Below, in pieces: positions 3,271 through 18,540 of a stretch of DNA of 64,000 nucleotides (its first letter is position 1; each line of letters opens with the position of its first letter). The notes beneath the pieces were generated by a model, which searched no databases, was not told the DNA's origin, and worked only from the letters and a program-made list of their open reading frames with translations. Location: positions 62,001 through 126,000 of the forward strand of contig NZ_FTPU01000002.1 of the NCBI RefSeq assembly GCF_900108115.1, in the 5' to 3' direction. The translations under genes and the position numbers were made by a program. The stretch is from Epilithonimonas bovis DSM 19482. GTDB taxonomy: Bacteria; Bacteroidota; Bacteroidia; Flavobacteriales; Weeksellaceae.

Positions 3271-3951
3271 TTAAACAAAATCTAACTTCAATTTCTCTAA
3301 ATCTGCAATCTTTATTCGTTTTCCTGAAAATATGAGGATATTTTCGTTTTCCATTTCTGAAATTACCCGATGCATAGTTTCATAGGTTGTTCCTATATAT
3401 GCCGCCAAATCTGTCTTGGTTAGTTCAGCTTTTAAAACATTCTCCTTATCAAGTCCTAAATGATCGATAAGATATAAAAGGTTAACGATAAAACGTTCCT
3501 TTACAGACAACTGAACTAAACTTCCCATCTTTTGTTCAGACCAGTGCAGTTCCTCTGCGTAAAACATCATCAATTCATAAGCAAAAGTATTATTGGTTTT
3601 CAACAAGGTTTTAAAAAAATCCAGTTCTACAAAGCAGAGAACAGAATCTTTCATTGCCGTGGCAGAAATTGGAGAAAGTGAATTAGCCGTCGAAATTCCG
3701 CGGTGTCCGACTATATCGCCTTTTTTACCAAATCTCACAATCATTTCACGCTCTCCCCAATGCTTATGAACTTTTACAAAACCATCCTGTATAAAGTAAA
3801 CTCCTGACATCTCATTCCCTTCCTCTATGAATTTTTGCCCCTTTTTAACCTTGACCAAAAACCTTTTTAGGTCAATCATCTGCCACCAATCCTGCGTTAT
3901 GTTTTGACACATAAAACACGTATGACTACATTCACTTAATTTTTTATTCAT
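3271..3951 (-). CDS. FNR-type Crp/Fnr family transcriptional regulator
   Basis: The protein has 226 residues: an N-terminal cNMP-like sensor domain (about 25-145) and a C-terminal winged helix (about 160-226). The recognition helix reads TTYETMHR; its Glu and Arg correspond to the DNA-contacting residues of CRP (RETVGR) and FNR (VETISR). Cysteines at 8, 12, 15 and 106 resemble the three-plus-one arrangement of the FNR [4Fe-4S] cluster. Cys106 in VLCFVE aligns with FNR Cys122 (MVCEIP). An oxygen- or NO-sensing role is therefore likely. The start is the ATG at 3951; a TTG at 4005 also opens the frame but coincides with the -33 element. The gene lies on the same strand just upstream of the nitrate-reductase-like pair, its probable target. 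Confidence 0.85.
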   Translation of the reverse strand: MNKKLSECSHTCFMCQNITQDWWQMIDLKRFLVKVKKGQKFIEEGNEMSGVYFIQDGFVKVHKHWGEREMIVRFGKKGDIVGHRGISTANSLSPISATAMKDSVLCFVELDFFKTLLKTNNTFAYELMMFYAEELHWSEQKMGSLVQLSVKERFIVNLLYLIDHLGLDKENVLKAELTKTDLAAYIGTTYETMHRVISEMENENILIFSGKRIKIADLEKLKLDFV

Positions 3952-3975
3952 AGTTGAAAACTGAAGGATGTACTG

Positions 3976-4005
3976 CAAATGTAGGCTGAAAAATTGGAAT
4001 TTCAA
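3976..4005 (-). promoter_or_regulatory. Promoter of the FNR-like gene
   Basis: On the minus strand TTG (4003-4005), a 19-bp spacer and TACATTTG (3976-3983) give a full match to the Bacteroidota promoter TTG-N19-TAnnTTTG. The expected start near 3971 leaves a leader of about 20 nt before the ATG at 3951. Confidence 0.7.
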
Positions 4006-4080
4006 GAAACAGCATTTCGAACACCTAAATTGAATTCAGCATTAGCTCAAATACTATTGATTAACAATCAATTACGAAGT

Positions 4081-4118
4081 AAAAAAAAAGGAAAAATCAC
4101 TCCTAAAAGTGATTTTTC
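4081..4118 (-). terminator. Intrinsic terminator downstream of tRNA-Arg
   Basis: Arms GAAAAATCACT (4091-4101) and AGTGATTTTTC (4108-4118) pair perfectly. On the minus strand they are followed by a long T run (A run at 4081-4089). Confidence 0.8.
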
Positions 4119-4126
4119 CCGTCAAG

Positions 4127-4200
4127 TGACCCCGGAGGGATTCGAACCCCCAACCGTTGGAGCCGAAATCCAATATTCTATCCAGTTGAACTACGGAGCC
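4127..4200 (-). tRNA. tRNA-Arg (anticodon TCG)
   Basis: On the minus strand a 74-nt cloverleaf folds. The acceptor GGCTCCG pairs with CGGGGTC (two G-U pairs). The anticodon stem TTGGA/TCCAA encloses the 7-nt loop TTTCGGC, giving anticodon TCG after U33. The T arm carries GGTTCGAATCC. The discriminator is A, and CCA is not encoded. It reads CGN arginine codons. A strong terminator follows at 4081-4118. Confidence 0.95.
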
Positions 4201-4260
4201 AGTTTTCTATTAATGATCATTGATGATATAAATGATACAGAAATCATTCATCAACAATGC

Positions 4261-6042
4261 TTAGAAAGTAATTTTCACACCTCCAACAACCTGTGCACCC
4301 AAAACTTTGTAACCCAGGTAATTTTGGTACTTGGTGTTCAGAAGATTATTTCCGAGTGCGAAAATACTGAAATTTTTGTGAATTTTATACTCTGCGGAAA
4401 GATTTAAATCGACATAACCTCCAACTTTTTGATTTCTTGATTCTTCTGTATAATAATCTGTTGGTATAATCGGATTTACAGCAGATACAGCAAAAGAATT
4501 GGTTGTTCTGTCGGTTACAAAATAGGTTTTGAAGCCCAGATTAAGTTTCTTTTCCAACATCGTATATTTGGCACCGATATTAAATCTGAAAAGAGGCTTA
4601 TAGTACACCTGATCCAGATTATCCAGCTTGTATTTCATAAAATGAAGGCCGGCGTCTACAACCAGATTCTCCACAGGAAATGCCTGCAAATCACCTTTAA
4701 CTTCCATCAGCGTCCCATTATCATAAACAGAATTAAATGTATTGGCATAATCATAACCATTGCGGTTGCTGTTAAGATTAAAGTCAAAAAGATTATTGGC
4801 CATAAAAAACTGTGCTTGATTCACCTTGCTGAAACCTGCATTGAAATCGTATTTAAATGCCTGGTCTACATCACCTTTCATCCCAAAATAAAAATGGTAC
4901 TTGGTCTCAGTAGGCGCAAGATAAAGATCAGAAATCAAGTAAGGATTTTCGTCCAAAAGATTGCCATAGGTATTGAGTTTCAAGCCACCGTCAATCCCGC
5001 CATAAAATTTGAATTCGTCAGCTGCAGCAACCAAAACCTCGGCTCTGGGAAACCAGTAGAATTTATTATTCTTAGAATCGCCACCAATACTGGTATTTTT
5101 TGAATTAAGGAAGCTGAAATCAGAACCAATCAGGAAATAAGAATCGCCTTTGTAGAAAGTCACTTTTGGCGAAAGCGTGAAGTTAAACTGGTTGTTGGTA
5201 CTCTTATTAAGTATATTAAATTTAGAATTAACTGTTTCCAGATTGATTCCCAGATCGCCGTTGGCTGTAATGTCATCATAAACAGAAAAATCATGCTTAG
5301 ATAAGTTCACTTCTGCATTAGCATAATTTTCGCTTGCACCGAAATGATCGCTCAGGAAATAGGATTTTACACGCACATTATTCAGAATATCATTAGAGTA
5401 ATGGTCATAATAACCGTTCACACTGAATTTGTTGACTTTCTGCGTCAAATCCAAATCGTTAGTCTGTGGTGTCAAGGCATAGATACCATAATAATTATAA
5501 TTATTGAAGGCATAATTGGCATCAATGTTAAACTTTCCCGTTTCTGTATAAATATTGGAAAAGACACCAATTTTGGCTTCGTTTTGTTTAGAGTCCCAAT
5601 CGTAGTCTTTTTTCAAACCACTTGTAGAAAGATAATGCGCATCGGCACCAATCTCAACATTATCCTGAATCTTACCCGAGATATTAGCATCCGCCAAAAA
5701 TTTCCCATAATTCCCATAGCCCAATCTGAAATAATTGGACTGATAATCACTGGAGAATTTTGGAGAAATATCTTCACTCTGGATTTCGGTTGTTTTGAAA
5801 TCGGAAACCGGCGGAACATTCACTATATCATATTTCAGGTTAAGCGAATCTTCCTTTTTCTTATTATCTGGCGGATAGTTTTTTTCCTGAACAACAGATG
5901 TTTTCTTCTTCTCAATTTTCTTGACTTCAGGTTCCCGTTTTTTAGCGAGAATCAATTGCTCTTCTTTGATCTGAGCTCCCACTTCCGAAATGCCTACTGT
6001 ACTCAAAAATGCCAGAACGGCGATATATTTTAGTTTGTTCAT
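4261..6042 (-). CDS. Outer-membrane beta-barrel protein, TonB-receptor-like without a plug
   Basis: The 593-residue protein has a signal peptide (MNKLKYIAVLAFLSTVGISEVGAQ) and a charged Lys/Glu-rich linker (about 30-65). From about residue 95 there are repeating amphipathic beta strands. The C-terminus GNNLLNTKYQNYLGY...VKITF is typical of TonB-dependent receptor barrels, ending in the aromatic residue used for outer-membrane insertion. The usual plug domain (about 110-150 residues) is absent and no TonB box is evident, so it may be a structural or assembly barrel rather than an importer. It follows the TPR gene after about 200 bp on the same strand. Flavobacteria often carry such a TPR-barrel pair; a joint role is inferred. 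Confidence 0.75.
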   Translation of the reverse strand: MNKLKYIAVLAFLSTVGISEVGAQIKEEQLILAKKREPEVKKIEKKKTSVVQEKNYPPDNKKKEDSLNLKYDIVNVPPVSDFKTTEIQSEDISPKFSSDYQSNYFRLGYGNYGKFLADANISGKIQDNVEIGADAHYLSTSGLKKDYDWDSKQNEAKIGVFSNIYTETGKFNIDANYAFNNYNYYGIYALTPQTNDLDLTQKVNKFSVNGYYDHYSNDILNNVRVKSYFLSDHFGASENYANAEVNLSKHDFSVYDDITANGDLGINLETVNSKFNILNKSTNNQFNFTLSPKVTFYKGDSYFLIGSDFSFLNSKNTSIGGDSKNNKFYWFPRAEVLVAAADEFKFYGGIDGGLKLNTYGNLLDENPYLISDLYLAPTETKYHFYFGMKGDVDQAFKYDFNAGFSKVNQAQFFMANNLFDFNLNSNRNGYDYANTFNSVYDNGTLMEVKGDLQAFPVENLVVDAGLHFMKYKLDNLDQVYYKPLFRFNIGAKYTMLEKKLNLGFKTYFVTDRTTNSFAVSAVNPIIPTDYYTEESRNQKVGGYVDLNLSAEYKIHKNFSIFALGNNLLNTKYQNYLGYKVLGAQVVGGVKITF

Positions 6043-6244
6043 TCTTTAAAATAATGTTTTTTTAACGCAAAAAGCGCAAGGATTTTTTTTTACAAAATGT
6101 TTTTAAGTTCGCAAAGGCGTAAAACTTAGCAAAGAAAAAACAATAATCTCAATTTACTTTTTTGAACGAAGTGCCTTTGTGAACATTTTTTACATTATTA
6201 TAAATTTCTCTGTGTCCTTTGTGTTCAATTTATCTGATAATCTT

Positions 6245-9217
6245 TTACTTTTTGATCTGTGCTTTCACCTCCTTCGCTTCTGCAACCACTTCCGGGAAAT
6301 CGCCATAATTATTGATGATTTCATCTACGGTGTAACTGGCCTGGTAATTATCTTTCAGGGCCAGATAATTTTTCGCCATAATAACCAATGCTTTTGCGCC
6401 CCAATATTCTTCCGAAGCATAATTGTTCGCTAATTTGAAAATGGTTTCATTAGATGATTTGAAAGCTTTTCCTTTGTTCTGATAAAAAGCTTTGGCATAA
6501 AGAGCTTCCGCCGCAACTTCTGTATTAGAAGACTTTTCAAGAGCTGTATAAGCAGTTTGCGCATCCTTATCTTTACCTTGCTGCATCAGGCTTCTGGCTT
6601 TGATGACTTTCGCCTGTTCCAATGTTGCTGCCGAATTTTTGGTATTGGCAATTACAGCATTTGCATATTTTTCTGCTTCGGCAAAGTTCTTTTCGTCTGC
6701 GTAGATTTTCATCAGTTCAACTGAAGAGAAATTTTTAATGGTCACGTTCGTAGAACTAGCAGTTTGTTCCAAATACTTTTTCGCATCAGCAACTTTATCC
6801 TGAGCTAAATAAATCTGAGCTAATCTTACCTGCGCTTCCTGCTGATAATCATTCTGGAAATCAGCCACATTCTGTAACGGAAGCAATGCTTTATCGGTTT
6901 GTTTTAACTGATAATAACTTTCGCCTAACTCGTACTGCGCTTTGAAAAGATTGTCACCACTTGGACTTTGGTCAAGGTATTTTTCATAATAAGTTACTGC
7001 CTTTGTATAATCTTTTTTCGAGAAACTGTCTTGTGCAAGATTCAGGTTGATCTCGCTGATCTCTGTTCCGGAAACATTCACATTCAGCCCTTTTGCAAAC
7101 TGTTCATAACCGGCCACATCACCGTTTTTCACAAAAGCAGGTTTTGCTGCCGCCACAATTTTGTCAGCATAAGCCGTATTTTTGTATTGGTTTGCCAATT
7201 GGCGGAATTCTGCAATGGCTTTGTCATTTAGGTTTTGATCAATATAATTCTGAGCTCTGTAGATCTGGGAATTGGCGACCAGATCTTTATCAGGACTGGA
7301 TCTTATGACCTTATCAAAATAAGAATTCGATTGGTCAAATTCATCATTTTGTGCATAAGCCGTTGCAATCTCATAGCTCGCATCATCCACATATTCAGAA
7401 TTCGGGTATTTTGAGATCAAAGCTTTCAGTTCAGTAATTTTCGCAAGGGTATCACCTTTGAAACCTAAAGCCAAAGCTTTTTGATACAAGGTATAATCGC
7501 TGGCATTATCGGCTTTATTATAGATATCGAGAGCTTCGTTCAACTGATTGTTTGCATAATACGTATCAGCCAGGCGCAGTTCCGCATCTGCTTTATATTC
7601 CTGTTTGGGGAATCTCAGATATTCTTTGAAATATTCCTGCGCCGATGTAAAATCCTTTGATTTGAAATAAGCATAGCCTAAGTCATAATCTAATTGTTCA
7701 CGTTCCGGGAAACCATCTGCAGTTTCGTTTTCAAGCTTGGTATAGGCTGCAATCGCAGATTTGTAATCGCCTTTCTGGTAATAAGTTTGTCCCAGCCAAT
7801 ACTGTGCTTTCTTATAAAAATCCTTGTTCAGATTATACTGAAGACTTCGTTTAAAATAAGATTCAGCAGTATCAAAATTCCCTTTATTGAATTCCTCAGA
7901 ACCCAAAAGATAGGAAACCTCCTGCTCTATTTTTTTGGTTTCGTTGGTTTTCTGATCCAGTTTTGCCAGCGCGTCCAAAGTGGCTTTGTAATCTCCGGAA
8001 TAAAGATAAGATTTCACCAAAAGAGACCTCATTTCCTGAGTTTTTGCACTTTTAGGATATTTGTCCAAATATCTTTGTATCACTTTGGAAGAATTCTCAA
8101 ATGGATTTCCCAACTCGTAACCCAATTTGGCGTACTGTTCTAAAGCGAGTTGCTGGACTTTGGCATCGTAGTTCATCTGGGATGCATTACGATAAGCTGA
8201 CAAAGCCTCTTGTTTTTGATTATTTTGCAAATAAGCGTTACCAAGTTGATAATAAGCGTTTTGCGCCAACGGAGAATTACTGTTAATCAATTGATTGTAA
8301 TAACCAACGGCTTCGGCATTTTTCCCCACTTGAGAAGAAACAAATCCCATTTCGTAAAGATCACTTTCTGATGGCGACTGCTCTTTATCCAAAAATAACT
8401 TAAGGTGCGGATAAGCCGACTGATAATCACCTTTCATAAAGTAACTCTCTCCTACTATCTTATGGATTTCGGTATCATAAGCGGTTGTTTTGCCTGTATT
8501 AAGGATGTCATTCCCTTCAGAAATAGCCAGATCATATTTTTTCTGATTGTAATACATTTGCACATAATAAGGCTTTACCAGATGGGCATATTCCTCATTA
8601 TTTTTGATCTGATCAAAGTAGACAAAGGCATTTTCATTTTGCTTATCGGCATAGTAAAGATGCCCCAACATATAGGCAATAGCGGGTTTACTGGTTTCAT
8701 CTGCGGTTTTGAAAGATTCTTCCAACGCTTCGATTGCCCCGGCAGAGTCGCCCGTCATAAACTTGGCGTAACCCAGCTTCATAATATACTGCGTATTTTC
8801 CTCTTTGCTCAGCTGATATTGATTGACATTTTGCAATGCCTGCAGTGCTTTTTCAAAATCCTTTTTCCCCAGGTAATAATCGGCCAATGGTCCGTTGGCT
8901 TGAGCAAAATAAGCCGATTTTGGGTATTCTTTCATAAAAGCATTGAGGCCTTCTTCCGCATATTGCTGCTGAAGAATCACGCCAATGACGTTGCTGAAAA
9001 ACAATGCAGCTTCTTTTCTGGAATTGCTTAGGCTTTTGTTATAAAAATACTGGCTGGAATATTCGTATTGAGAAGCGTTATAAACTTTGGTGTTGTAGAG
9101 ATTCTCTGCCAATCCAAAATGATAGTCTTCTTTTTGAGTAAAATATTGAGATTGTTGTGCATCGGAAATTCCATAAAAAGAAATTAACGAGGCTAATAAT
9201 ACTTTTTTTGAATTCAT
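6245..9217 (-). CDS. Large tetratricopeptide-repeat protein, exported
   Basis: The first ATG, at 9217, gives 990 residues; an earlier TTG at 9229 is less likely. A signal peptide (MNSKKVLLASLISFYGISDAQ) is followed by TPR units along the whole length, for example YQLGNAYLQNNQKQEALSAY, YWLGQTYYQKGDYKSAIAAY and YELGESYYQLKQTDKALLPL. It is probably a periplasmic or outer-membrane-associated scaffold. The barrel gene follows downstream on the same strand, which suggests the two act on one cell-envelope process. No catalytic domain is visible. The specific partner is unknown. Confidence 0.85.
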   Translation of the reverse strand: MNSKKVLLASLISFYGISDAQQSQYFTQKEDYHFGLAENLYNTKVYNASQYEYSSQYFYNKSLSNSRKEAALFFSNVIGVILQQQYAEEGLNAFMKEYPKSAYFAQANGPLADYYLGKKDFEKALQALQNVNQYQLSKEENTQYIMKLGYAKFMTGDSAGAIEALEESFKTADETSKPAIAYMLGHLYYADKQNENAFVYFDQIKNNEEYAHLVKPYYVQMYYNQKKYDLAISEGNDILNTGKTTAYDTEIHKIVGESYFMKGDYQSAYPHLKLFLDKEQSPSESDLYEMGFVSSQVGKNAEAVGYYNQLINSNSPLAQNAYYQLGNAYLQNNQKQEALSAYRNASQMNYDAKVQQLALEQYAKLGYELGNPFENSSKVIQRYLDKYPKSAKTQEMRSLLVKSYLYSGDYKATLDALAKLDQKTNETKKIEQEVSYLLGSEEFNKGNFDTAESYFKRSLQYNLNKDFYKKAQYWLGQTYYQKGDYKSAIAAYTKLENETADGFPEREQLDYDLGYAYFKSKDFTSAQEYFKEYLRFPKQEYKADAELRLADTYYANNQLNEALDIYNKADNASDYTLYQKALALGFKGDTLAKITELKALISKYPNSEYVDDASYEIATAYAQNDEFDQSNSYFDKVIRSSPDKDLVANSQIYRAQNYIDQNLNDKAIAEFRQLANQYKNTAYADKIVAAAKPAFVKNGDVAGYEQFAKGLNVNVSGTEISEINLNLAQDSFSKKDYTKAVTYYEKYLDQSPSGDNLFKAQYELGESYYQLKQTDKALLPLQNVADFQNDYQQEAQVRLAQIYLAQDKVADAKKYLEQTASSTNVTIKNFSSVELMKIYADEKNFAEAEKYANAVIANTKNSAATLEQAKVIKARSLMQQGKDKDAQTAYTALEKSSNTEVAAEALYAKAFYQNKGKAFKSSNETIFKLANNYASEEYWGAKALVIMAKNYLALKDNYQASYTVDEIINNYGDFPEVVAEAKEVKAQIKK

Positions 9218-9378
9218 ATAGATTTTCAAAATTATTGTCGTTCTGAGCTTGTCGAGGACAGCTTCAACAAAGTTTGTTCCTTTTCAACGAAAATATGGAA
9301 AAGATATTACTTGACGGTGGTTAAAGCTTCAAAAATTATGATACTTTATGATAAGTAATTTTTTGGGAAAGCGGAGGA

Positions 9379-10284
9379 CTAACTTTTAGCTGAATTCAAA
9401 AGTTCAAAATATTTCACTCTTACATTTTCCGGAGAAATGATTTTCATTCTTCCTGTATGCGTGAGAAGTTCCTGATAGAAATCGTAAGTTGGAGCTAATG
9501 TCAATTCAATTCTGTATTCCGAATTATTATCGATGAGGACTTTCTGCGAATGGTGAATTGGTAATGACTTCACAAATTTGCCTTGTTCACAATCGAAAGA
9601 CAAAACAATGGTTTCCGGCGCTTGTCCTAACGTTGAAATAATCCCGAATGAATTGACAAACATTTGGTTGACATCGAACTCTTGTTTTGAATAGGTTTTT
9701 GTTGAAATCTCTAGGTCAGAGACCCTGTCAAGCCCAAAAGTTTTGAGAAAGAAATCTTTTCCATCATTTTCATTGGCCAAAAGATACCATCGGTTTTTGA
9801 ATTCTTTGAGTGCATAAGGTTCCAAAACTTTTTTATGCGGAATGCCCTCCCAATGTTTGGTATAATTAAAAGTGATGATTTTGGAATTTTTAATCGCATA
9901 GATAAGCCCCTCCAAATTATGCAATCCGGAGGCCTGGCGTTTCTCAAACAACATTATTTTGGAATCGTTTTCCGTCTGTTTATAAGCATTCATCAACATC
10001 AGGTTATCAAAAATTGTTTGAGAGGAATCGGTAAAGGCTTCATCTGTCAACCGATACGTCATGGTAGAACGCTTAAAACTAATCTCGATACCGAAAAGTT
10101 CTTCTAATAAATTTCGGTCACGTTTAAAGGTTTTTTCGCTGAATGCCAATTCATTACCAAAACTGTCTTTGTAATATTTTTCTTCCAGAAAATTTCTCAA
10201 CTCATTATAAGTTGCTCCATTTGGTCTGGATTTCAAATGGTTATAAATATACATCAAACGGTATAATTGCTCTCGCTTTGCCAT
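9379..10284 (-). CDS. WYL-domain transcriptional regulator
   Basis: The 301-residue protein starts with a winged-helix-like region (about 1-80, MAKREQLYRLMYIYNHLKSR). A WYL domain follows (about 125-205), with the core HKKVLEPYALKEFKNRWYLL, and then a C-terminal extension like WCX. WYL proteins sense ligands, probably nucleic acids or nucleotides, and often repress or activate phage-defence loci. The gene lies 45 bp beyond the metallophosphoesterase and on the same strand as the DUF262 genes. It is a candidate regulator of that block, though its own stand-alone transcription is possible. Confidence 0.8.
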   Translation of the reverse strand: MAKREQLYRLMYIYNHLKSRPNGATYNELRNFLEEKYYKDSFGNELAFSEKTFKRDRNLLEELFGIEISFKRSTMTYRLTDEAFTDSSQTIFDNLMLMNAYKQTENDSKIMLFEKRQASGLHNLEGLIYAIKNSKIITFNYTKHWEGIPHKKVLEPYALKEFKNRWYLLANENDGKDFFLKTFGLDRVSDLEISTKTYSKQEFDVNQMFVNSFGIISTLGQAPETIVLSFDCEQGKFVKSLPIHHSQKVLIDNNSEYRIELTLAPTYDFYQELLTHTGRMKIISPENVRVKYFELLNSAKS

Positions 10285-10329
10285 GATTTTAAATTTTGTA
10301 AAGCAAATATAAACAAGTAAACGGACATT

Positions 10330-10920
10330 TTAAGTCCGTTTACTTAATTTATTGGAATAGGATGCATTAACAAAGTTTACATTCTTGGTTTTACACCTAC
10401 CAAAACCATCGTGATTGTGTCCAAACACAACATATTTAGGTTTGATTGCGAAAATAAGATCTCTTAATTTCTCGTCTCCTATCCCATTATCCAAAATTCC
10501 AAACGATGGATAATGAAAAACGAGGATATCAATATCAGATCCTAAAATTCTATTATGAAAAATACAATAAGGATTGATCCCTGTTATTTTGATCCCTTTG
10601 AGTTTAATTGATTTTTCCCTCAGCCAAATTATATTATCAGGAATTAAGTCGATGGCGGAATCTGGTTCTAATTCGAAAGGCCAATCATGATTACCGTTGA
10701 CAAAAATTTTATGCGGAATTTCCAAACTGGAATACCAATTAAAAAAATCCTGTATTTCGTCTAAATCGCCATCATTACATATATCACCGCAATGTATAAT
10801 GATTTCTATATTTTGAGGAATTGTTAGTTTTCTGTGTTTGCCATGAGTATCAGAAATTATAAGAATATTTTGATTTTGAATGTGGATGAGTGGCATTGGA
10901 TTGTTTTTAAAAATCCTCAT
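10330..10920 (-). CDS. Calcineurin-like metallophosphoesterase
   Basis: The protein has 196 residues and the ordered metal-binding motifs of the family: ISDTHG (DxH), CGDICNDGD (GD), VNGNHDWP (GNHD), a histidine in VFHYPSFGI, and GHNHDG (GHxH). These bind two metal ions and hydrolyse phosphoester bonds. Such short single-domain members resemble YfcE/MPPED-like phosphodiesterases; the substrate cannot be read from the sequence. It begins 26 bp after the DUF262-DUF1524 gene and is probably cotranscribed with it. That makes it a possible nuclease or nucleotide-cleaving accessory of the locus (inference). A second in-frame ATG lies at 10896. Confidence 0.85.
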   Translation of the reverse strand: MRIFKNNPMPLIHIQNQNILIISDTHGKHRKLTIPQNIEIIIHCGDICNDGDLDEIQDFFNWYSSLEIPHKIFVNGNHDWPFELEPDSAIDLIPDNIIWLREKSIKLKGIKITGINPYCIFHNRILGSDIDILVFHYPSFGILDNGIGDEKLRDLIFAIKPKYVVFGHNHDGFGRCKTKNVNFVNASYSNKLSKRT

Positions 10921-10946
10921 TTTTTTGGAGTGAGGGGTTTGAAAGT

Positions 10947-12782
10947 TTACTTATTTTTAAAGTAATTCAATATTGCTTCCATTTCTTTTTGGTGTTGTAA
11001 TATTTCATTAGAATTCCATGTATTCCCCTTTTCTCCCGAAAATGTTTGGAGCATAACTAATCTTTTTAAACTTACATTGTTTTCTCCATACGTGTTCTTC
11101 TTGTATTCAGGATGATCTTTTCCTGCAGATGAATTTTCTGAATTTGAAATCAAACACAAATTACCAAAACAATTTAGTATTTTCTCTTTACTTTTATTTT
11201 CAATCTCCTCAACTTTATCTATATGATTCTGAGCGAACAAATGCTCAATAGAATTGAGTTGTCTAAACCTAAAATTTTCAAATAAGCCTTTATTAATTCT
11301 CTCTCCTATAAATAGTAAGTCCTTACTTAATTTAAGAAAGTTGTTCTCACCTTTCAAATAATCATTATAAACTTCCCACAACATATACTCGAAATAATAG
11401 AAATTTTTAGCTGCAAAATTTAGATAAAACAGATTCTCAACACTCAAGTTCTGAATATTTTTTTTGAAATCTGAAAATAAAATCTCGTACAATAGTTTAT
11501 CTGTTTTAGGTTGATATTTTAATATTTTCAACAACCACTCCTTTTTATTTTCAGAAACAGAAGAATAGTAAAACATAGATTGCAACATTTCAATCTTATC
11601 TTCCTCGTTACTATTTTCAAAAACAGATTCTGTAGTTGTAAATTCATTATTTTCTATCTTGTATTTTCTTATTCCCCATTTTGTATTTTTATCTTGTGTT
11701 GTTAAATCATTTTTAATAACATAGGTATCAAAATAAATTCTATTCTCTAATAATTTATTTATAAATAATTCTGCATTTTCATAATTTTTGAAAAACTCCA
11801 AAAGTTTTTTATCATCAAACGAATGATCCTTTTCTGGATGTAGAAGATTAAATGTATACAATAGTAATTGAGGAAAATCAAGTACAGAACGAAATTTGTC
11901 TGTTTTCTCCTGATCTTCTTGTGAAAAATTTTCAGGGATTTTGTGGATTTCCAAAATCTGTGCTATAGTTTTTTCTTTTTTTTCGGGATTTAAAGGATTA
12001 TAATTAGCTTCCCTATATAATATTTCTTCATTTAGTTTAGAAATACTGACTTCTACTTTAATATTATCTTTAAAAATATGATCTCGTAGTTTTCGGTTAA
12101 AATTATTCCATACATAATCTCCCATTTCAGAACAAGCACTCCAAATCTCATCAAATAATAATTTCTTAGAATCATCAACTTTGTCCATGAGCTCAGCCTT
12201 AAGAATTTCGTGTTTCTCCAATTGTTCACCACGATTGTTCATTATCTCGAAATAATGATTTAGGTCTGTATCTGCTGGTAATTTCGTCCGGAAAATGTAT
12301 GTACTTTCAAAGAGTTTTTCCCGAAATAAATCTTTATCGATATCCTGATCCTTAAAAACATCTTGGATTATAGTATAACCCTGTAAAAGGTTTTTGGACT
12401 TTTCATTTTCATAAAAAGGATCCTGTTCTGTCTTTCTATTACTCAAATGTCTGAAAAATTTTTCACATTCACTCCTTGCCTGAAAATGTATATTAAAATC
12501 CACTTCTTCTTTTTCTGACTTCAAAAAAGATTTTAACAGATTTAATGTTGTATGTCTTTGCTGGCCATCTATCAATTCAAATTCGTCATTATTATTCTTA
12601 AAAGTCACCAATGTTCCCAGATAATATTTTTCTTTTTTGGAAACACTATTTATATCATCAATAAGCTTAGAAATCTGTGGCTTATCCCATTCATAATTTC
12701 TTTGGTAAATAGGAATAATATATTGATCATTCTGTAATAGATTTTCTATTGAAATCGCCTCACTTTGTTGCTCCATTTTCAT
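10947..12782 (-). CDS. DUF262-DUF1524 protein, GmrSD/SspE-like putative nuclease
   Basis: The protein has 611 residues from the ATG at 12782 (a TTG lies one codon earlier). The N-terminal DUF262 (ParB/Srx-like) domain shows IPIYQRNYEW (about 23-32), LIDGQQRHTTL (about 75-85) and NNRGEQLEKHEILKAE. The C-terminal 110 residues show a DUF1524/HNH-like pattern: SIEHLFAQNH, then GNLCLISNSEN, then a Lys-rich segment. In GmrSD, BrxU and SspE, DUF262 binds and hydrolyses NTPs while DUF1524 nicks or cuts phage DNA. It overlaps the upstream DUF262 gene by about 20 bp, so the two are translationally coupled. A phage-restriction role is inferred from family and layout. Confidence 0.8.
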   Translation of the reverse strand: MKMEQQSEAISIENLLQNDQYIIPIYQRNYEWDKPQISKLIDDINSVSKKEKYYLGTLVTFKNNNDEFELIDGQQRHTTLNLLKSFLKSEKEEVDFNIHFQARSECEKFFRHLSNRKTEQDPFYENEKSKNLLQGYTIIQDVFKDQDIDKDLFREKLFESTYIFRTKLPADTDLNHYFEIMNNRGEQLEKHEILKAELMDKVDDSKKLLFDEIWSACSEMGDYVWNNFNRKLRDHIFKDNIKVEVSISKLNEEILYREANYNPLNPEKKEKTIAQILEIHKIPENFSQEDQEKTDKFRSVLDFPQLLLYTFNLLHPEKDHSFDDKKLLEFFKNYENAELFINKLLENRIYFDTYVIKNDLTTQDKNTKWGIRKYKIENNEFTTTESVFENSNEEDKIEMLQSMFYYSSVSENKKEWLLKILKYQPKTDKLLYEILFSDFKKNIQNLSVENLFYLNFAAKNFYYFEYMLWEVYNDYLKGENNFLKLSKDLLFIGERINKGLFENFRFRQLNSIEHLFAQNHIDKVEEIENKSKEKILNCFGNLCLISNSENSSAGKDHPEYKKNTYGENNVSLKRLVMLQTFSGEKGNTWNSNEILQHQKEMEAILNYFKNK

Positions 12783-14124
12783 CAATTTTATTGGTTAAAT
12801 ATTTATAAATTTTTTCAGAACCTTTCACAAAATTGCCTACAGACCATTCTTTATCGTAAACATAGTTGCAAAACAAACTTTGGTGCAATTCCTCAGGTTG
12901 ATATACATCAGGAATTTGATAGAAAAATTTTTGCCCTTTTTCATAATTTAAGACTGAATTATCGTTGATCGCTTTCTTATCTAATCTTAATTGATAGCAA
13001 TTCTTGTAAAATTCGGTATAGTACACTTTATCAAATTTATCTATACCAAAACGGTCTGTAAAAAGCATGCATATATTTTCAAACAAATTTTTCACTTTCA
13101 AATCTCCGATACGGTCAGATTTTTCATAGTTTGTAAATATTGTATAAAAATTTTGAAAATCCCTAAAAATTATATTTTCAAATAAATCTCTTTTTAATTC
13201 AATATAATGAAATACATAATCAAAAAAGACTTTTCCGTTAATAATAGGCATGGTGATCTGAAAAGGATATTGTTAAGAAATATTAAAATTTCTCAGCATT
13301 TTATCTTTTTGAGCATTCTGAATTGCTCCGTCTAATAATCTATAGATAATTTCATACGTATATTTATTTCCTTTATACAAACTTATGCCTTTGAATTCAG
13401 ATATATCATTCTTTGAAAAAAGGTATTTTTTTTCTCTTTTGGCCCATTTCCTAATTCGGAACAGATGATTTTCAAAAATAGATTTTAGCGGTTTATCGTT
13501 TTTTAAAAGATAATCTTCCCATTGCACAGCATACTTTTCAATTTCTGCTTCGGTATGGGCGTCATTTTCCATTTCTCTAAGATGAAAAGCTTTAAGTAAA
13601 TCGTAGGGTTCTAAAGGCTTTCCTCGAGAATTTTGTGAATCAAATAACTGGAATGCCTCATCCTGCTGATAAACAGTAATAATCACAAACTGACAACCTT
13701 TCTTTATTTTATCCAAGTAATCCTGCTTTTCAGAGGCCGAAAAAGATTTAGACAAAAACCAGTTTTCTATGAGTTGATAATTGTACTTTATATTGTTTTT
13801 TGAAATTTCATGCTTATAATTTTCATTTTGTAATAGGACATTCTGTTCTTTTAAATAGTGAAAAATTAGAGATAAAGTGGTTAACCTTTGTTGACCATCA
13901 ACAATATTATTATGGGTTTTGTCATCATGAATAATGATACTTCCAACACGATATATAGCATTCTTTTTCAGGTAGATATTTTCGTACAAATCATCCAACA
14001 ATTGTATCACATGTTCTTTTCTCCATTTATATGGTCTCTGATAATGCGGAATTTTAAATGTTGTTTGAAATAAATTGCCTAAAACTTCTTCTTTTAGAAA
14101 TGGTGATTTATTTGCTTGTTCCAT
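12760..14124 (-). pseudogene. DUF262 protein split by an in-frame TAA stop
   Basis: From the ATG at 14124 the frame encodes 283 residues with DUF262 signatures: IPHYQRPYKW, IVDGQQRLTTL and QNSRGKPLEPYDLLKAF. It ends at TAA (13273-13275). The same frame resumes without another stop for about 170 codons to 12760, with QYPFQITMPIINGKVFF directly after the stop. This block resembles the conserved PFQ..QPIINGKxFFEY segment of full-length DUF262 proteins. The ATG at 13251 would give only a 163-residue remnant lacking the NTPase core. The simplest reading is one gene of about 454 codons with a nonsense mutation (CAA to TAA is one possibility). Two coupled subunits, stop readthrough or a sequencing error are alternatives. 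It overlaps the DUF262-DUF1524 start. Confidence 0.75.
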
Positions 14125-14197
14125 AGTTCATCAATTTTCCCCAAATATATAAAAAACCCCCACTCTGTTTTTACGGTTTTCCATAATTCCGGGCTAT

Positions 14198-14398
14198 TTA
14201 CAGTTTTACCATATCAAAATTCCCCATATAGGTACCGTTTGAAGCGGTTTTGGCGCCATATTTTTGGTTAATGGCATCTATAACTTTTTTCTGATTGGGC
14301 TTTCTACTGGCATTCCTGACTACGATTTCCACCGTCATTACTTTAGCAATAGTGAAGCTGTCCCTTTTGGCGGTAACTTTCCATACATGATTTGCCAT
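14198..14398 (-). CDS. Small conserved hypothetical protein (DUF6140-like)
   Basis: This 66-residue basic protein has no signal or membrane segment. The middle TVEIVVRNASRKPNQKKV and the end resemble small Bacteroidota proteins annotated as DUF6140; I recall this family only loosely. It lies 10 bp after the 140-residue gene and 73 bp before the DUF262 gene on the same strand, so it may belong to the same transcript. Function unknown. Confidence 0.6.
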   Translation of the reverse strand: MANHVWKVTAKRDSFTIAKVMTVEIVVRNASRKPNQKKVIDAINQKYGAKTASNGTYMGNFDMVKL

Positions 14399-14408
14399 GA
14401 TCCTAGTT

Positions 14409-14831
14409 TTAAAAAATTAATAATTTATCTTCAACGATTTTTGAAATCGAAAAATTCTTATTCATGATATCGATCGGGTATTTGCGTTGGTTCAAAAAGT
14501 GTGGCCTTTCTGGGGAGAAGTCTTCCCATTCATTTATTTCTATCAATTTTTTATCCCGAAGCGTAAACAAAACTTGTATTTGAGCCAATACTTCAAACTT
14601 TGAAACCTCCAATCTCACCGCAATATCTTCCAACTGGCAGTTTTTATACTCTGTATTATTGATAATAATGGCGGTCAGAAAAATTGACTCCAACACATTG
14701 ATCTGAAACAATTCTGATATAACATTTAATTCTTTTTCAAAATCCTTTCGGTATTGCTCCAAAGTTTTGTAACTGTAAGCTGTCGTTTGATGGTAAATTT
14801 TGTCGATACTATCAATGAGTGTTTTTGTCAT
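14409..14831 (-). CDS. Hypothetical protein with helix-turn-helix-like region
   Basis: The 140 residues are mostly predicted helix. The segment about 65-110 (QLEDIAVRLEVSKFEVLAQIQ followed by a charged turn) looks like a winged helix. It resembles the N-terminal domain that precedes AAA+ modules in some Bacteroidota ATPases, but no ATPase follows here. It is the first gene of the minus-strand block that runs into the DUF262 genes. It may be a small regulator or a remnant. Function unknown. Confidence 0.55.
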   Translation of the reverse strand: MTKTLIDSIDKIYHQTTAYSYKTLEQYRKDFEKELNVISELFQINVLESIFLTAIIINNTEYKNCQLEDIAVRLEVSKFEVLAQIQVLFTLRDKKLIEINEWEDFSPERPHFLNQRKYPIDIMNKNFSISKIVEDKLLIF

Positions 14832-14972
14832 TAATCTGTATTTGAGGTTAATAATTTATTTTACGTTATTATTTTTGCGCAAACATAAAACACAAAACCG
14901 ACAAAACACGTCCGTTATAAATGCGGCAAAAAATATTTCAACAAGTCTTCATTCATAAAACACTAAAAACCC

Positions 14973-14980
14973 TAATTTTG
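14973..14980 (+). promoter_or_regulatory. -7 box upstream of the PBP4 gene
   Basis: TAATTTTG fits TAnnTTTG and ends 13 nt before the ATG at 14994. By the spacing seen at the SRP RNA gene, transcription would start near 14985. No clear -33 TTG is seen. Confidence 0.4.
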
Positions 14981-14993
14981 ATAAAATTTCCGG

Positions 14994-16367
14994 ATGAAAA
15001 CTTTTTTTCTCTTTGCTCTGCTCGGCGCTCAGCTGTATTCCTCACAATCTGTTTCAGACAAAATCGACAAATCTGTGAAGGACATGATGTCTTTACCCAA
15101 TGCATTAGCCGCCAATTTGTCCTTCTATATCACCGATGAAAATAGAAACCTGATCTATGACTACAACGGCAGCAAAGGCCTCTCCACAGCCAGTACACAA
15201 AAGATCTTCACCGCTGCTGCTGCGCTGGAGACGTTGGGGAAAAATTACCAATTCACAACTACGGCATCTTATTCCGGAAAATTATCCAATGGTAATCTGG
15301 ACGGTGATTTTTACATTACCTCCAACGGCGATCCCACTTTGGGCAGCTGGCGCTATGAGAATTACAAACCGGAAAATTTTAAACAAAAACTTTTGGAGGC
15401 GATTAAGAAAGCCGGAATCAAAAAAATCAACGGAAGCCTGATTATCGATGATTCTTATTTTGATTTTCAAAGTACGCCGGGTGGTTGGCCCTGGAATGAT
15501 TTGGGGAACTATTATGGTGCCGGAACGTTTGGTGTTAATTGGAAAGAAAATCAGTTTGACATTAGTATCACGGGTAGCCAATTCAAAAGTTTCTCTTATG
15601 ATCTGGATAAGGTTAATTGGATTAATGAACTGAAAACTGGCGGCATCTCTGACCAAAGCTTAATTTACACCGCACCACATTCTCATACCGCTTTAATTAA
15701 CGGCACATTACCTTCAAGTAAAACTTTAACTGTATCGGGTGCAACTCCCAATCCACCAATACAGTTAGGTTTAGAAATCGAAAATTTACTTCAAGACAAC
15801 AACATCCCTATTTCAGGAAAAGTAACAACATTCTATAATGAAAAACTAGCCGGAAAATCTGCTGGAAAAGCACCTGATAACAGTTTCATTTTTGAATACA
15901 AATCACCAACACTGGACAAGATCATCTATTGGTTTTTAAGAAAAAGTATCAATCTCTATGGTGAAACCCTGGTAAAGACAATGGCTAAAGAAAAGCTAAA
16001 TAACGCAACCTTTGAGACTGGTGTTGCCTTTCTGAAAGGTTTTTGGAAATCAAAAGGGATTAATCCAATAATGATTAATTTTGCTGACGGAAGCGGCCTT
16101 TCTCCACAGAATTATGTTTCTGCAAAAGCACAGGTACAGGCTTTGCTGTATGCTAAAAAACAAAGTTGGTTTGACCCGTTTTATGACGGTTTCCCTACGC
16201 AGAACGGCATTAAAATGAAAAGTGGAACCATCAAGGACAGCAAATCTTTTGCAGGCTATCATACAGCTAGTGATGGCAAAAAGTATGTCTTTTCAATTAT
16301 TCTTAATAATTATCAGGGTGGCAATATCAGCAATGAGCTATTCAAGATCCTGGAGAATTTAAAATAA
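14994..16367 (+). CDS. dacB: D-alanyl-D-alanine carboxypeptidase/endopeptidase (PBP4, S13 family)
   Basis: The 457-residue protein has a signal peptide (MKTFFLFALLGAQLYSS). The S13 serine-peptidase motifs occur in order: STQK (SxxK, about residue 69-72), SGLSPQN (SxN-type, about 370) and KSGT (about 405, in place of KTG). PBP4-type enzymes remove the terminal D-Ala from peptidoglycan stem peptides and cut D-Ala-mDAP cross-links in the periplasm. A downstream glycosylase gene starts 1 bp after its stop, so the two are cotranscribed. The length matches the family. Confidence 0.9.
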   Translation: MKTFFLFALLGAQLYSSQSVSDKIDKSVKDMMSLPNALAANLSFYITDENRNLIYDYNGSKGLSTASTQKIFTAAAALETLGKNYQFTTTASYSGKLSNGNLDGDFYITSNGDPTLGSWRYENYKPENFKQKLLEAIKKAGIKKINGSLIIDDSYFDFQSTPGGWPWNDLGNYYGAGTFGVNWKENQFDISITGSQFKSFSYDLDKVNWINELKTGGISDQSLIYTAPHSHTALINGTLPSSKTLTVSGATPNPPIQLGLEIENLLQDNNIPISGKVTTFYNEKLAGKSAGKAPDNSFIFEYKSPTLDKIIYWFLRKSINLYGETLVKTMAKEKLNNATFETGVAFLKGFWKSKGINPIMINFADGSGLSPQNYVSAKAQVQALLYAKKQSWFDPFYDGFPTQNGIKMKSGTIKDSKSFAGYHTASDGKKYVFSIILNNYQGGNISNELFKILENLK

Positions 16368-16368
16368 C

Positions 16369-16854
16369 ATGAGCAGAATCTCATCCTTACCTCCAATTGT
16401 TGACAACTCCTCAAAAATCCTGATTCTGGGCTCGGTTCCCGGGGTCAAATCCCTGCAGATGCAACAGTATTATGCGCATCCACAAAACAACTTCTGGAAA
16501 TTGATGTTTCATCTTTTGGACACAGAATTTTCTTCTGATTACCATACCAGACTGCAACTGCTGAAAAAGCACCGCATCGCGCTGTGGGATGTTATCGAAA
16601 GTTGTGAAAGAAAAGGCAGCAAAGACACGGATATAAAATCTGAAATTGATAATGATATCCAAGAATTGATTAACAGCCATCCGAACATTAAGATTATCTT
16701 TTGCAATGGCCAAAAATCATATAAAAACCTGCTAAAAGTGGTCGGGAAAAACTTCATAATTCCTATTGTTGTACTTCCTTCTACCAGCCCGCTGCATACC
16801 ATTAAGTTTGAGGAAAAACTGGAGCAGTGGAAGATTATCAAAGATTATTTGTAG
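16369..16854 (+). CDS. Hypoxanthine/uracil-DNA glycosylase (UDG superfamily)
   Basis: The 161-residue protein has the small UDG fold. The motif LGSVPGVKSLQMQQYYAHPQ (about 22-41) and the following NNFW match the DNA-deoxyinosine glycosylase family. The second catalytic loop is LPSTSPLH (about 138-145). The family excises deaminated bases such as hypoxanthine in base-excision repair. It starts 1 bp after dacB and ends 1 bp from the convergent aroE stop, so no terminator separates these genes. Confidence 0.85.
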   Translation: MSRISSLPPIVDNSSKILILGSVPGVKSLQMQQYYAHPQNNFWKLMFHLLDTEFSSDYHTRLQLLKKHRIALWDVIESCERKGSKDTDIKSEIDNDIQELINSHPNIKIIFCNGQKSYKNLLKVVGKNFIIPIVVLPSTSPLHTIKFEEKLEQWKIIKDYL

Positions 16855-16855
16855 A

Positions 16856-17581
16856 TCAGCTATTCCAAATCTCCCAGGCTTTTTCAGCCTGCTGCTCAAG
16901 CATAAAAAAACCATTGATTGTTGTGGCTCCATTTGCTGCACAGCGCTTCAGGAAAGCGGTTTCTGATGGATTATAAATCAAATCAATTACATAATGCTGA
17001 TCCGAAACGGCATCAAAAGGAAAAGAAACAGAATCTTCAACATTAGGAAAAGTGCCAACGGGCGTGGTCTGGATAATCAATAATGAATCTTTCACTAAGT
17101 CAGAAGGCAGGTTATCAAAATTGATTTCTGATTTTCTGGAAACAGTATGATAAGCGATGCCATGCTTTTGTAAAATATATTTAACGGCTTTTGCTGCACC
17201 GCCATCACCCAAAATAAGTGCTTTTCTGTGATCGTCTTTTTTATGGATCAAAAGTGTTTTCTCGAATCCAAAAGCATCGGTATTATAGCCTGTTTTTTTT
17301 CCGTCGCGGAAACTAACACAGTTGACCGCTCCAATGCTCCGCGCCTCTTCACTTAGATCATCAAGATATGGGATAATGGCCTGTTTATAAGGGATTGTAA
17401 CATTCATCCCAACAAGATTAGGATTTGTGAAAATAGCCGTTACGTCATTAATATCAGCAATATCAAAGAAATTGTAACTGTAATTTTTCAGGAACAGCTT
17501 CTTAAATTTTTCTTCGAAATATTTTTTAGAAAACGAATACGAAATATTTTTTCCCAGCAATCCAAAATCGTGTCTCTCCAT
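16856..17581 (-). CDS. aroE: Shikimate dehydrogenase
   Basis: The 241-residue protein carries the substrate-binding serines in GKNISYSFSKKYF, the catalytic-lysine region NVTIPYKQAI, GAVNCV, and the NADP-binding loop LGDGGAAKAV. It reduces 3-dehydroshikimate to shikimate in the aromatic amino-acid pathway. The length is slightly short, as is usual in Bacteroidota. It converges with the glycosylase gene, leaving 1 bp between the stops. Confidence 0.93.
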   Translation of the reverse strand: MERHDFGLLGKNISYSFSKKYFEEKFKKLFLKNYSYNFFDIADINDVTAIFTNPNLVGMNVTIPYKQAIIPYLDDLSEEARSIGAVNCVSFRDGKKTGYNTDAFGFEKTLLIHKKDDHRKALILGDGGAAKAVKYILQKHGIAYHTVSRKSEINFDNLPSDLVKDSLLIIQTTPVGTFPNVEDSVSFPFDAVSDQHYVIDLIYNPSETAFLKRCAANGATTINGFFMLEQQAEKAWEIWNS

Positions 17582-17706
17582 GGGTCCAAATTTATAAAAT
17601 ATCCTAAAATCAACACCTATTTTTTCCCTTTAATCATAACAATTATTTATTTTAAAAAGCCATTGGCTGGCTTGATTTTGGCATCCGAAGTAAAAAATTT
17701 AACAAA

Positions 17707-18540
17707 ATGAGTAATTTGATTCTTAACAACGGAACCGAAATTCCGGATATCGGTTTTGGAACCTGGCAAACAACAGAAAACGTACAGAAAACAGTAAAAT
17801 TGGCTTTGGAAGCTGGTTACAGACATATTGACACAGCAGCCATCTATGGCAACGAAGCCGAAATTGGCGAAGCTCTTGCTGACTCCAAAATCCCGAGGAA
17901 AGACTTGTATCTTACCACTAAAATATGGAACAGCAACAGAAGTACACTTGGCATAAAAACATCTGTAGAACAATCGCTTAAGAAACTGCAGACCAATTAT
18001 CTTGATCTGCTTCTGATTCATTGGCCAGCGAATGAAAAACAGTTTGCCAACTGGAAAGAAATCAATGCGGAAACCTGGAAAGCGATGGAAGAATTGTATA
18101 AAACAGGTGTTGTGAAAAGTATTGGTGTGAGTAATTTTATGCTACCACATATCAAAGCTTTGCTGGAAAGCGCGGAAATCATCCCTGCTGTTAACCAGAT
18201 TGAGTTCCATCCCGGATATACGCAACCGAAAGTTGTAGATTACTGCAAAGAAAAAGGCATTGCTATAGAAGCATGGAGCCCGATAGGATCCGGAAGGCTT
18301 CTTAAAGATCGCGACCTGAAAGCGATTGCAGACCAATATAACGTTTCGCCGGCTATCCTGTGCATCCAGTTTTGCCTGCAATGTGGCGTAGTTGTTTTAC
18401 CGAAATCGGAAAACAAAGAAAATATCAATAATAATCTCCATTTTAACCGATTCGAGATATCTGAAAGTGACATGGAGAAACTTAAAACACTTAAAGAGAC
18501 AGGCTTTTCAGGCTTAAATCCTGAGACGGTCGACTTCTAA
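17707..18540 (+). CDS. Aldo/keto reductase
   Basis: The 277-residue TIM-barrel oxidoreductase carries the AKR signatures GFGTWQT, HIDTAAIYGNEAEIG (catalytic Asp and Tyr), the lysine in TTKIWNS, LLIHWP (catalytic His), and the NADPH-binding end VVLPKSENKENINNN. It reduces carbonyls with NADPH. The size and motifs resemble 2,5-diketo-D-gluconate reductase-type enzymes, but the substrate is not predictable. It is a single gene between divergent aroE and convergent kdsB. Confidence 0.9.
   Translation: MSNLILNNGTEIPDIGFGTWQTTENVQKTVKLALEAGYRHIDTAAIYGNEAEIGEALADSKIPRKDLYLTTKIWNSNRSTLGIKTSVEQSLKKLQTNYLDLLLIHWPANEKQFANWKEINAETWKAMEELYKTGVVKSIGVSNFMLPHIKALLESAEIIPAVNQIEFHPGYTQPKVVDYCKEKGIAIEAWSPIGSGRLLKDRDLKAIADQYNVSPAILCIQFCLQCGVVVLPKSENKENINNNLHFNRFEISESDMEKLKTLKETGFSGLNPETVDF

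Follow-up and report, generated by a model that had tools for sequence, protein, structure and literature searches.

A two-gene GmrSD variant in a WYL-linked exchange cassette with a putative operator

A run of minus-strand genes in Epilithonimonas bovis DSM 19482 (contig NZ_FTPU01000002.1) raises the question of whether a pair of DUF262 genes, a metallophosphoesterase gene and a WYL regulator gene make up a single uncharacterised defence system, as a reading of the sequence alone had proposed, or how else these parts belong together. We analysed the locus within a stretch of 64,000 nucleotides, referred to here as the window. All the genes named by that sequence-only reading are present in the ORF listing, on the minus strand and inside positions 9379-14831, and are transcribed in the order P140, P66, D1 (in two pieces), D2, MPE and WYL (Table 1). 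Pfam searches confirmed what had been said of the domains of D2 (GmrSD_N/DUF262, 7.8e-31; GmrSD_C/DUF1524, 1.3e-11), of MPE (Metallophos, 2.6e-12) and of the WYL gene (WYL, 1.6e-11, with a WCX score only equal to the cut-off), and the reading frames of all three are open. The upstream piece of D1 matches GmrSD_N (2.2e-31) and the first part of DUF7834, and its downstream piece matches the remainder of DUF7834 (2e-23). The N-terminus of the WYL protein gave no Pfam HTH match. A scan for sigma-70-type promoters gave 36 vs 30.6 +/- 6.0 in shuffles and was set aside. Promoters of the Bacteroidota type carry the pattern TTTG and TAnnTTTG, which occurs 12 times in the window vs 5.5 expected; none of these occurrences precedes P140 or WYL.

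Table 1. Coordinates, within the window, of the cassette genes and of the two putative operator sites.
Feature	Position	Strand	Basis
P140 (140-aa ORF)	14409..14831	-	ORF call; weak AAA N-terminal similarity
P66 (66-aa ORF), small protein without assigned function	14198..14398	-	homologue in the G011 cassette
D1 N-terminal piece: DUF262 with DGQQR present, then the beginning of DUF7834; ends at in-frame TAA	13273..14124	-	Pfam
D1 C-terminal piece: remaining DUF7834, frame unchanged	12760..13251	-	Pfam
D2: DUF262 and DUF1524 (HNH), overlaps end of D1; DGQQR, EH and GNL kept	10947..12785	-	Pfam and motifs
MPE: calcineurin-like metallophosphoesterase, PADLOC PDC-S10 family, optional gene	10330..10920	-	PADLOC and motifs
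WYL-WCX transcriptional regulator	9379..10284	-	Pfam, PADLOC, homologues
Putative WYL operator 1: inverted repeat, spacer 7	14895..14917	.	PWM score 26.5; site outside the training set of that PWM
Putative WYL operator 2: perfect 8+8 inverted repeat, spacer 7	10319..10341	.	among the PWM training sites

To describe the relationship between the two DUF262 genes, we located DUF7834 in 26 genomes among 296 of the family (E<=0.001) and in 5 more among 395 of the phylum (E<=1e-8), leaving out a weak second place in G028. In 29 of these 31 places D2 is the gene immediately downstream of D1: both profile models identify 27 of them, and the other 2, which lie at contig ends, were assigned from position. 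The remaining two are G053, with a fragment, and G134, where the match scores under the family cut-off. In complete cases the two ORFs overlap or touch. Comparison of the D1 and D2 distance matrices for 17 pairs revealed a correlation of r 0.977, with 0 of 2000 permutations as high, a match to which shared descent can contribute. By gene order and matching divergence, D1 and D2 are thus a fixed gene pair. A full-text literature search, covering few subscription papers and main texts without supplements, found no paper on DUF7834 and no description of a DUF7834 partner beside a GmrSD-type protein. The adjoining HNH protein, present in all but two of the DUF7834 places, gives this domain a testable partner role.

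The kinship of the pair with GmrSD, BrxU and SspE that the sequence-only reading had claimed is borne out by Pfam, with GmrSD_N in both proteins and GmrSD_C in D2. The DUF262 domains of D1 and D2 align with each other (hhalign, 99.9%), DGQQR is present in both, and the DGQQR, EH and GNL motifs of D2 are invariant in 18 of 18 sequences. The HNH motif given for this family in PMC8565348 is DHIYP; the D2 of the window is missing the usual proline after EH, which we count against our best explanation. In a PADLOC search D1 and D2 matched HEC-06, Orf5 and SspE models with the best stretches N-terminal, except that one Orf5 model runs over D2 residues 18-405. D2 scores 97 bits against HEC-06; two or three stretches pass, and the best of them, the one listed, spans about the initial 140 of the ~560 model positions. 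No PADLOC model matched the DUF7834-bearing C-terminal piece of D1. Among the best solved structures by sequence are the DUF262 proteins 20yv, 9jfl and SspE (6jiv), a likeness to SspE and to the protein of PDB 9jfl; the BrxU-like 7p9k is weaker. We also considered DUF7834 as a degenerate HNH domain and rejected this, as hhalign against the HNH part of D2 returned nothing (E 0.26-0.34).

Like GmrSD and BrxU, D2 joins a DUF262 DGQQR to a DUF1524 HNH, and defence-island and type I RM neighbourhoods of the kind reported in PMC4619093 are shared as well. GmrSD is either one fused protein or one DUF262 protein with one DUF1524 protein, the latter being the split form described in PMC10952713 and PMC8565348. 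Here, by contrast, D2 alone already has the fused DUF262-DUF1524 architecture and D1 adds a second DUF262, bearing DUF7834 where the nuclease would be expected. BrxU itself, as described in PMC8565348, is an intertwined dimer of DUF262-DUF1524 chains that nucleotide binding shifts to monomers. The fixed pairing, the shared DUF262 and the lack of a nuclease in D1 together suggest that D1-D2 is a BrxU-type machine made asymmetric. In such a machine D2 would supply the nucleotide-binding DUF262 and the HNH nuclease, and D1 the second DUF262 together with DUF7834; the two would form a heteromer in which D1 replaces one BrxU protomer as sensor or gate, and D2 would cut phage DNA or that of other mobile elements.

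The sequence-only reading had described the first of the two genes as a split DUF262 protein. The DUF262 assignment holds, and the division into two separate genes does not: D1 is one frame cut by a single in-frame TAA, the two pieces sharing one reading frame with no frameshift between them. The Pfam match to DUF7834 spans the break, and relatives with a full-length match have a single unbroken frame, mostly of 440-490 aa. Against the D1 of the congener G011, dN is 0.34 downstream of the stop and 0.33 upstream, dS being saturated or not computable. Sequence past the stop has thus changed at no higher rate than that before it, and the stop may be recent, tolerated or an assembly error. Because D1 is interrupted, the effector may be inactive in this strain. 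A search of phage records for D1 gave one fragmentary match.

Two small ORFs precede D1. The 66-residue unknown of the sequence-only reading, P66, is present as an ORF and is probably a real gene, since a 65% identical homologue lies in the same cassette of G011; further homologues occur in the WYL loci L145, L150, L155 and L169 among the fetched loci that were searched. P140 had been called a small helix-turn-helix-like protein, a description that finds no Pfam HTH match; its single-sequence structure prediction was of low confidence (mean pLDDT 44.5) and was set aside. P140 has two congeneric homologues in the loci searched. In G091 (L045) D1-D2 is followed by an AAA ATPase whose residues 8-104 P140 resembles (HMM E 1e-4), as it does the AAA ATPase behind a second kind of DUF262 pair in L163 (HMM E 1e-4). 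The hhalign comparison with AAA gave E 2.8e-5 at a probability of 74%, with controls at 0.12-0.64. From this weak match, P140 may be a stand-alone version of one domain, the N-terminal one, of the ATPase that partners DUF262 pairs elsewhere. The in-frame TAA, and the resemblance of P140 to the N-terminal domain of an ATPase that is itself missing here, could alternatively be signs of a decaying locus in which D1 is a pseudogene and the remaining cassette is being lost; we regard this as very unlikely, given that D1 is free of frameshifts and its downstream piece is not diverging faster, that D2, MPE and WYL have open frames, that P140 is kept at similar size in the window and two congeners, and that an assembly error could lie behind the stop.

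We determined the distribution of the phosphoesterase to define its place in the cassette. MPE matches PDC-S10 (E 1.1e-49, over residues 16-191), which, like the HEC-06 matched by D2, is a PADLOC candidate family; the literature search found no paper under the name PDC-S10. Its sequence contains SDTH, GD, GNHD and GHNH, which we take to be the motifs of a calcineurin-like phosphoesterase, and its nearest solved structure by sequence is MPPED2. Among 23 genomes of the genus, a query with the window protein detected MPE only in the one from which the window comes. The PDC-S10 profile matches 253 of 296 family genomes, with only 15 places above 150 bits and the next at 49; these 15, together with 11 from 395 genomes of the order, make up 26 MPE places; contig ends truncate part of these stretches, and the set includes closely related loci. 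A WYL gene lies within seven ORFs at 12 of the 26, and a DUF262 pair, by raw count, at 3 (the window, L149 and L228). A scan of a named genome collection gave one weak match, which was set aside, and the one viewed of four plasmid matches, on a Prevotella plasmid, has a WYL gene, an exonuclease gene and two DUF262 genes near the phosphoesterase.

These data bear directly on the proposal that the DUF262 pair, MPE and WYL form one unit, in which MPE would process a nucleotide signal or a DNA end. The three recur together in the window and in G265 (L149), both of one family, in G447 (L228), of another family, and likewise, with the exonuclease in addition, on the Prevotella plasmid, the type of pair differing between the cases. 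Yet MPE is found in only one of the 29 D1-D2 loci, the window's own; the other 28 lack it, G011, whose cassette is otherwise the same, among them, and 23 of the 26 MPE places, some of them cut by contig ends, have no DUF262 pair within seven ORFs. A single four-part unit is therefore unlikely, and MPE as a core subunit was rejected on this co-occurrence. Rather, its distribution is that of a recurring island companion, optional and not a fixed subunit. The sequence-only reading had named, as evidence that would speak against it, conservation of the phosphoesterase and WYL genes in all relatives without DUF262 genes. As worded, this pattern was not observed: a query with the window protein finds the phosphoesterase in a single genome of the genus, and the WYL half does have a counterpart, in that a close homologue occupies the same site with other cargo in G018 and G020.

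The chromosomal site of the WYL gene was compared across the genus. At 72-75% identity, the gene is found at the same site in G011, G018 and G020, between one TPR gene and variable cargo: D1-D2, P66 and P140 in G011; another DUF262 protein, a DEDDh exonuclease and P140 in G018; and two genes with no Pfam or PADLOC match in G020, a cargo that counts against the cassette reading. We read the same flank in 18 other congeners, labelling genes by similarity. In 11 the site is empty, no more than one short ORF separating the TPR gene from a divergent ~560-aa gene; in 3 there are type I RM-like genes, between these landmarks in L196 and L206 and next to the TPR gene in L202. L208 has a single 664-aa gene, and L199, L201 and L211 gave no clear reading. 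The varied cargo and the empty flanks mark this site, on comparison of gene content, as a defence hotspot. More broadly, a DUF262 gene lies within 5 kb at 11 of 71 WYL places vs 0.43 expected under uniform placement, a null that is lenient since defence genes cluster in islands; the count covers 57 of the 60 genomes with WYL homologues, three of lower completeness (4 of 75 places) being left out. The tie between WYL regulator and DUF262 genes in a defence-island setting is upheld to this extent, and it is from this setting of the pair and WYL that we infer a candidate defence role, as had been proposed. Co-location overstates function, because defence islands attract unrelated genes.

A more specific link between the WYL gene and its cargo comes from a 23-bp inverted repeat, AAACGGAC-N7-GTCCGTTT, which forms a perfect 8+8 palindrome between MPE and WYL. 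This copy lies 35 bp upstream of the WYL gene, within a terminator-like hairpin (10314-10346); the other is found 64 bp ahead of P140 and 76 bp ahead of a divergent PBP4 gene. The two are the only PWM sites >=13 in the window, one at each cassette end (shuffles 0.8), and the only places with <=1 mismatch in a pattern search, which found four further places at 2 or 3. A first PWM, made from eight sites of four congeners, was run against the upstream regions of 58 WYL homologues. At p<=0.01 it located a site in 30 of them (26 of 54 without the training genomes), the site starting 51-60 bp ahead of the start codon in 26 of the 30. The count became 29 of 58 under a first-order Markov null, and with similar upstream regions removed it was 21 of 42 outside the training genomes. 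A second PWM, built from WYL-upstream sites alone, turned up sites at the first cargo gene, or shortly ahead of it, in the window, G011, G018 and G020; it also placed sites in front of AAA-ATPase genes in L160, L161, L163 and L170. Thirty chosen loci contain 56 sites vs 4 in shuffles, training sites included, and a site with PWM>=13 occurs within 120 bp upstream of 35 of 58 WYL genes (19 of which built the PWM) vs 19 of 765 other genes, cargo included.

The repeat is not found everywhere. Where the DUF262 pair is of the second kind, six of seven loci (L137, L149, L183, L184, L228 and L234) are without a site >=13 and L163, the seventh, has two; the switch is therefore not a general one. A genome-wide pattern search gave counts near those of the reversed control; the places inside the cassette were both of those in G020, 2 of 4 in G018, 2 of 5 in the window's genome and 0 of 2 in G011, whose two cassette sites both escape the search at this stringency. 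No feature stood out at the expected place in an unsupervised palindrome profile taken at fixed offsets, though palindromes of 7-8 pairs fall in the expected interval in 12 of 58 cases vs 1 of 58 in a control interval. The argument for an operator is thus one of where the sites lie, not of how many there are, and on this ground we regard the 23-bp repeat as the putative operator of the WYL protein. Location also bears on whether the DUF262 pair, MPE and WYL are passengers that merely share a hotspot, with WYL regulating nothing here. The highly mixed cargo around WYL homologues fits such an account, as does the neglect of island clustering in the uniform null used for the WYL-DUF262 link, but in the window, G011 and G020 the two ends of the cassette carry inverted repeats that match, and WYL is retained while the cargo changes, which makes it improbable.

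The arrangement resembles that of BrxR and CapW, in which a WYL regulator stands beside defence genes and an inverted repeat precedes both its own gene and the operon, as is seen here by sequence; the window regulator likewise has a WYL domain, with a borderline WCX. BrxR has two boxes and represses, according to PMC9122601, and the CapW site is palindromic according to PMC9122588, so that the two-box layout of the window matches both. Unlike those regulators, the WYL gene lies at the 3' end of its cassette, and the BrxR boxes are 11+11 bp with a 5-bp spacer (PMC9122601) as against the 8+8 repeats and 7-bp spacer of the window. Matching repeats at the cassette ends, together with a constant WYL amid changing cargo, point to a BrxR/CapW-like repressor of interchangeable modules. 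The WYL protein would bind the repeats in front of its own gene and of the leading cassette gene and hold operon expression down, with a ligand lifting the block, in the manner of BrxR and CapW; MPE would be an optional accessory inserted between effector and regulator.

Our preferred reading, which we hold with moderate confidence, is of a WYL-repressed, cargo-swapping defence cassette at a hotspot, with a two-gene relative of GmrSD/BrxU as its effector. What the comparative evidence leaves of the locus is a GmrSD variant made of two genes, together with an exchange cassette that is linked to WYL and has a specific, testable putative operator; the four-part system is unsupported. A wider proposal, to which we give slightly less than an even chance, is that D1-D2 represents an unnamed, widespread, obligately heteromeric branch of the GmrSD superfamily, an asymmetric BrxU, and that a single lineage of WYL repressors in this family, with its conserved inverted-repeat operator, governs a slot that can take D1-D2, other defence modules, or the second kind of DUF262 pair accompanied by AAA ATPase and DEDDh exonuclease. 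The operator could serve to locate other operons under the same WYL lineage, and would change the observation that WYL genes lie near defence genes into a predicted regulon.

The settings of D1-D2 outside the window differ from that of the WYL cassette. In the 29 D1-D2 loci, which are stretches of 5 to 20 kb in which neighbour counts are lower bounds, type I RM-like genes accompany the pair in at least 10, a WYL gene in at least 4 and an AAA ATPase in at least 1; Pfam supplied the typing of the RM query genes and of the L045 AAA, and a relative of the latter, in L149, is IetA-like in PADLOC. By gene order the pair sits between hsdS and hsdR in L043, L044, L052, L218 and L221, and also on an E. 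coli plasmid, a position like that of the DUF262 gene rloF; the window pair is unlike RloF in being tied to a WYL gene, and hsd genes are absent from its cassette by ORF list, Pfam and locus comparison. The clustering of DUF262 genes beside GmrSD homologues and type I RM genes was already reported by Machnicka et al. 2015 (PMC4619093), who also pointed back to RloF; the neighbourhood is therefore known, and the DUF7834 partner is what our analysis would add. Relatives of D2 occur in 1036 of 72,556 plasmid records. Besides the E. coli plasmid, a K. pneumoniae IncF plasmid carries D1-D2, both confirmed by Pfam and profile, and one plasmid record bearing the pair names RloF. The Klebsiella pair is >=99% identical in 468 plasmid records, of which 454 cover >=80% of the pair and 394 are called conjugative.

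The chromosomal flank of the TPR gene, which neighbours the WYL side of the cassette, is a hotspot, because its content varies among the congeners: it holds nothing, type I restriction-modification-like genes or the WYL cassette. On the other side of the cassette, the PBP4-UDG-AroE-AKR block is inverted in the window relative to most of the congeners read, and the genes for 562 and 621 amino acids that border the empty site in congeners have no match anywhere in the 64-kb window. Together, these differences suggest a local rearrangement.

Features discussed and their coordinates
Feature	Sequence	Coordinates	Remark
TPR-gene flank with cassette	window	9229-14994	
P66	window	14198-14398	
PBP4-UDG-AroE-AKR block	window	14994-18540	directly adjoins cassette
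D1-D2 pair	L235 (K. pneumoniae plasmid)	3724-6953	

The proposed two-gene effector, D1-D2, is also carried on plasmids: the pair of L235 recurs at ≥99% identity in 468 plasmid records, 464 of them from Klebsiella. Two other loci are further modification-linked surroundings for D1-D2, one (L047) with a DndB-like gene and an N6/N4 methylase plus helicase nearby, the other (L048) with a type III-like restriction subunit. Homologues of the 66-residue protein P66 occurred, among the fetched loci searched, in WYL loci with different cargo (L145, L150, L155 and L169); thus, P66 may go with the regulator rather than the effector.

WYL genes are repeatedly adjoined by a second type of DUF262 pair, with proteins of ~550–650 and ~700–760 amino acids (L137, L149, L163, L183, L184, L228, L234 and the Prevotella plasmid L237). 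With its companions, which vary among loci (a DEDDh exonuclease, an IetA-like AAA ATPase), this pair looks like a multi-gene system of its own.
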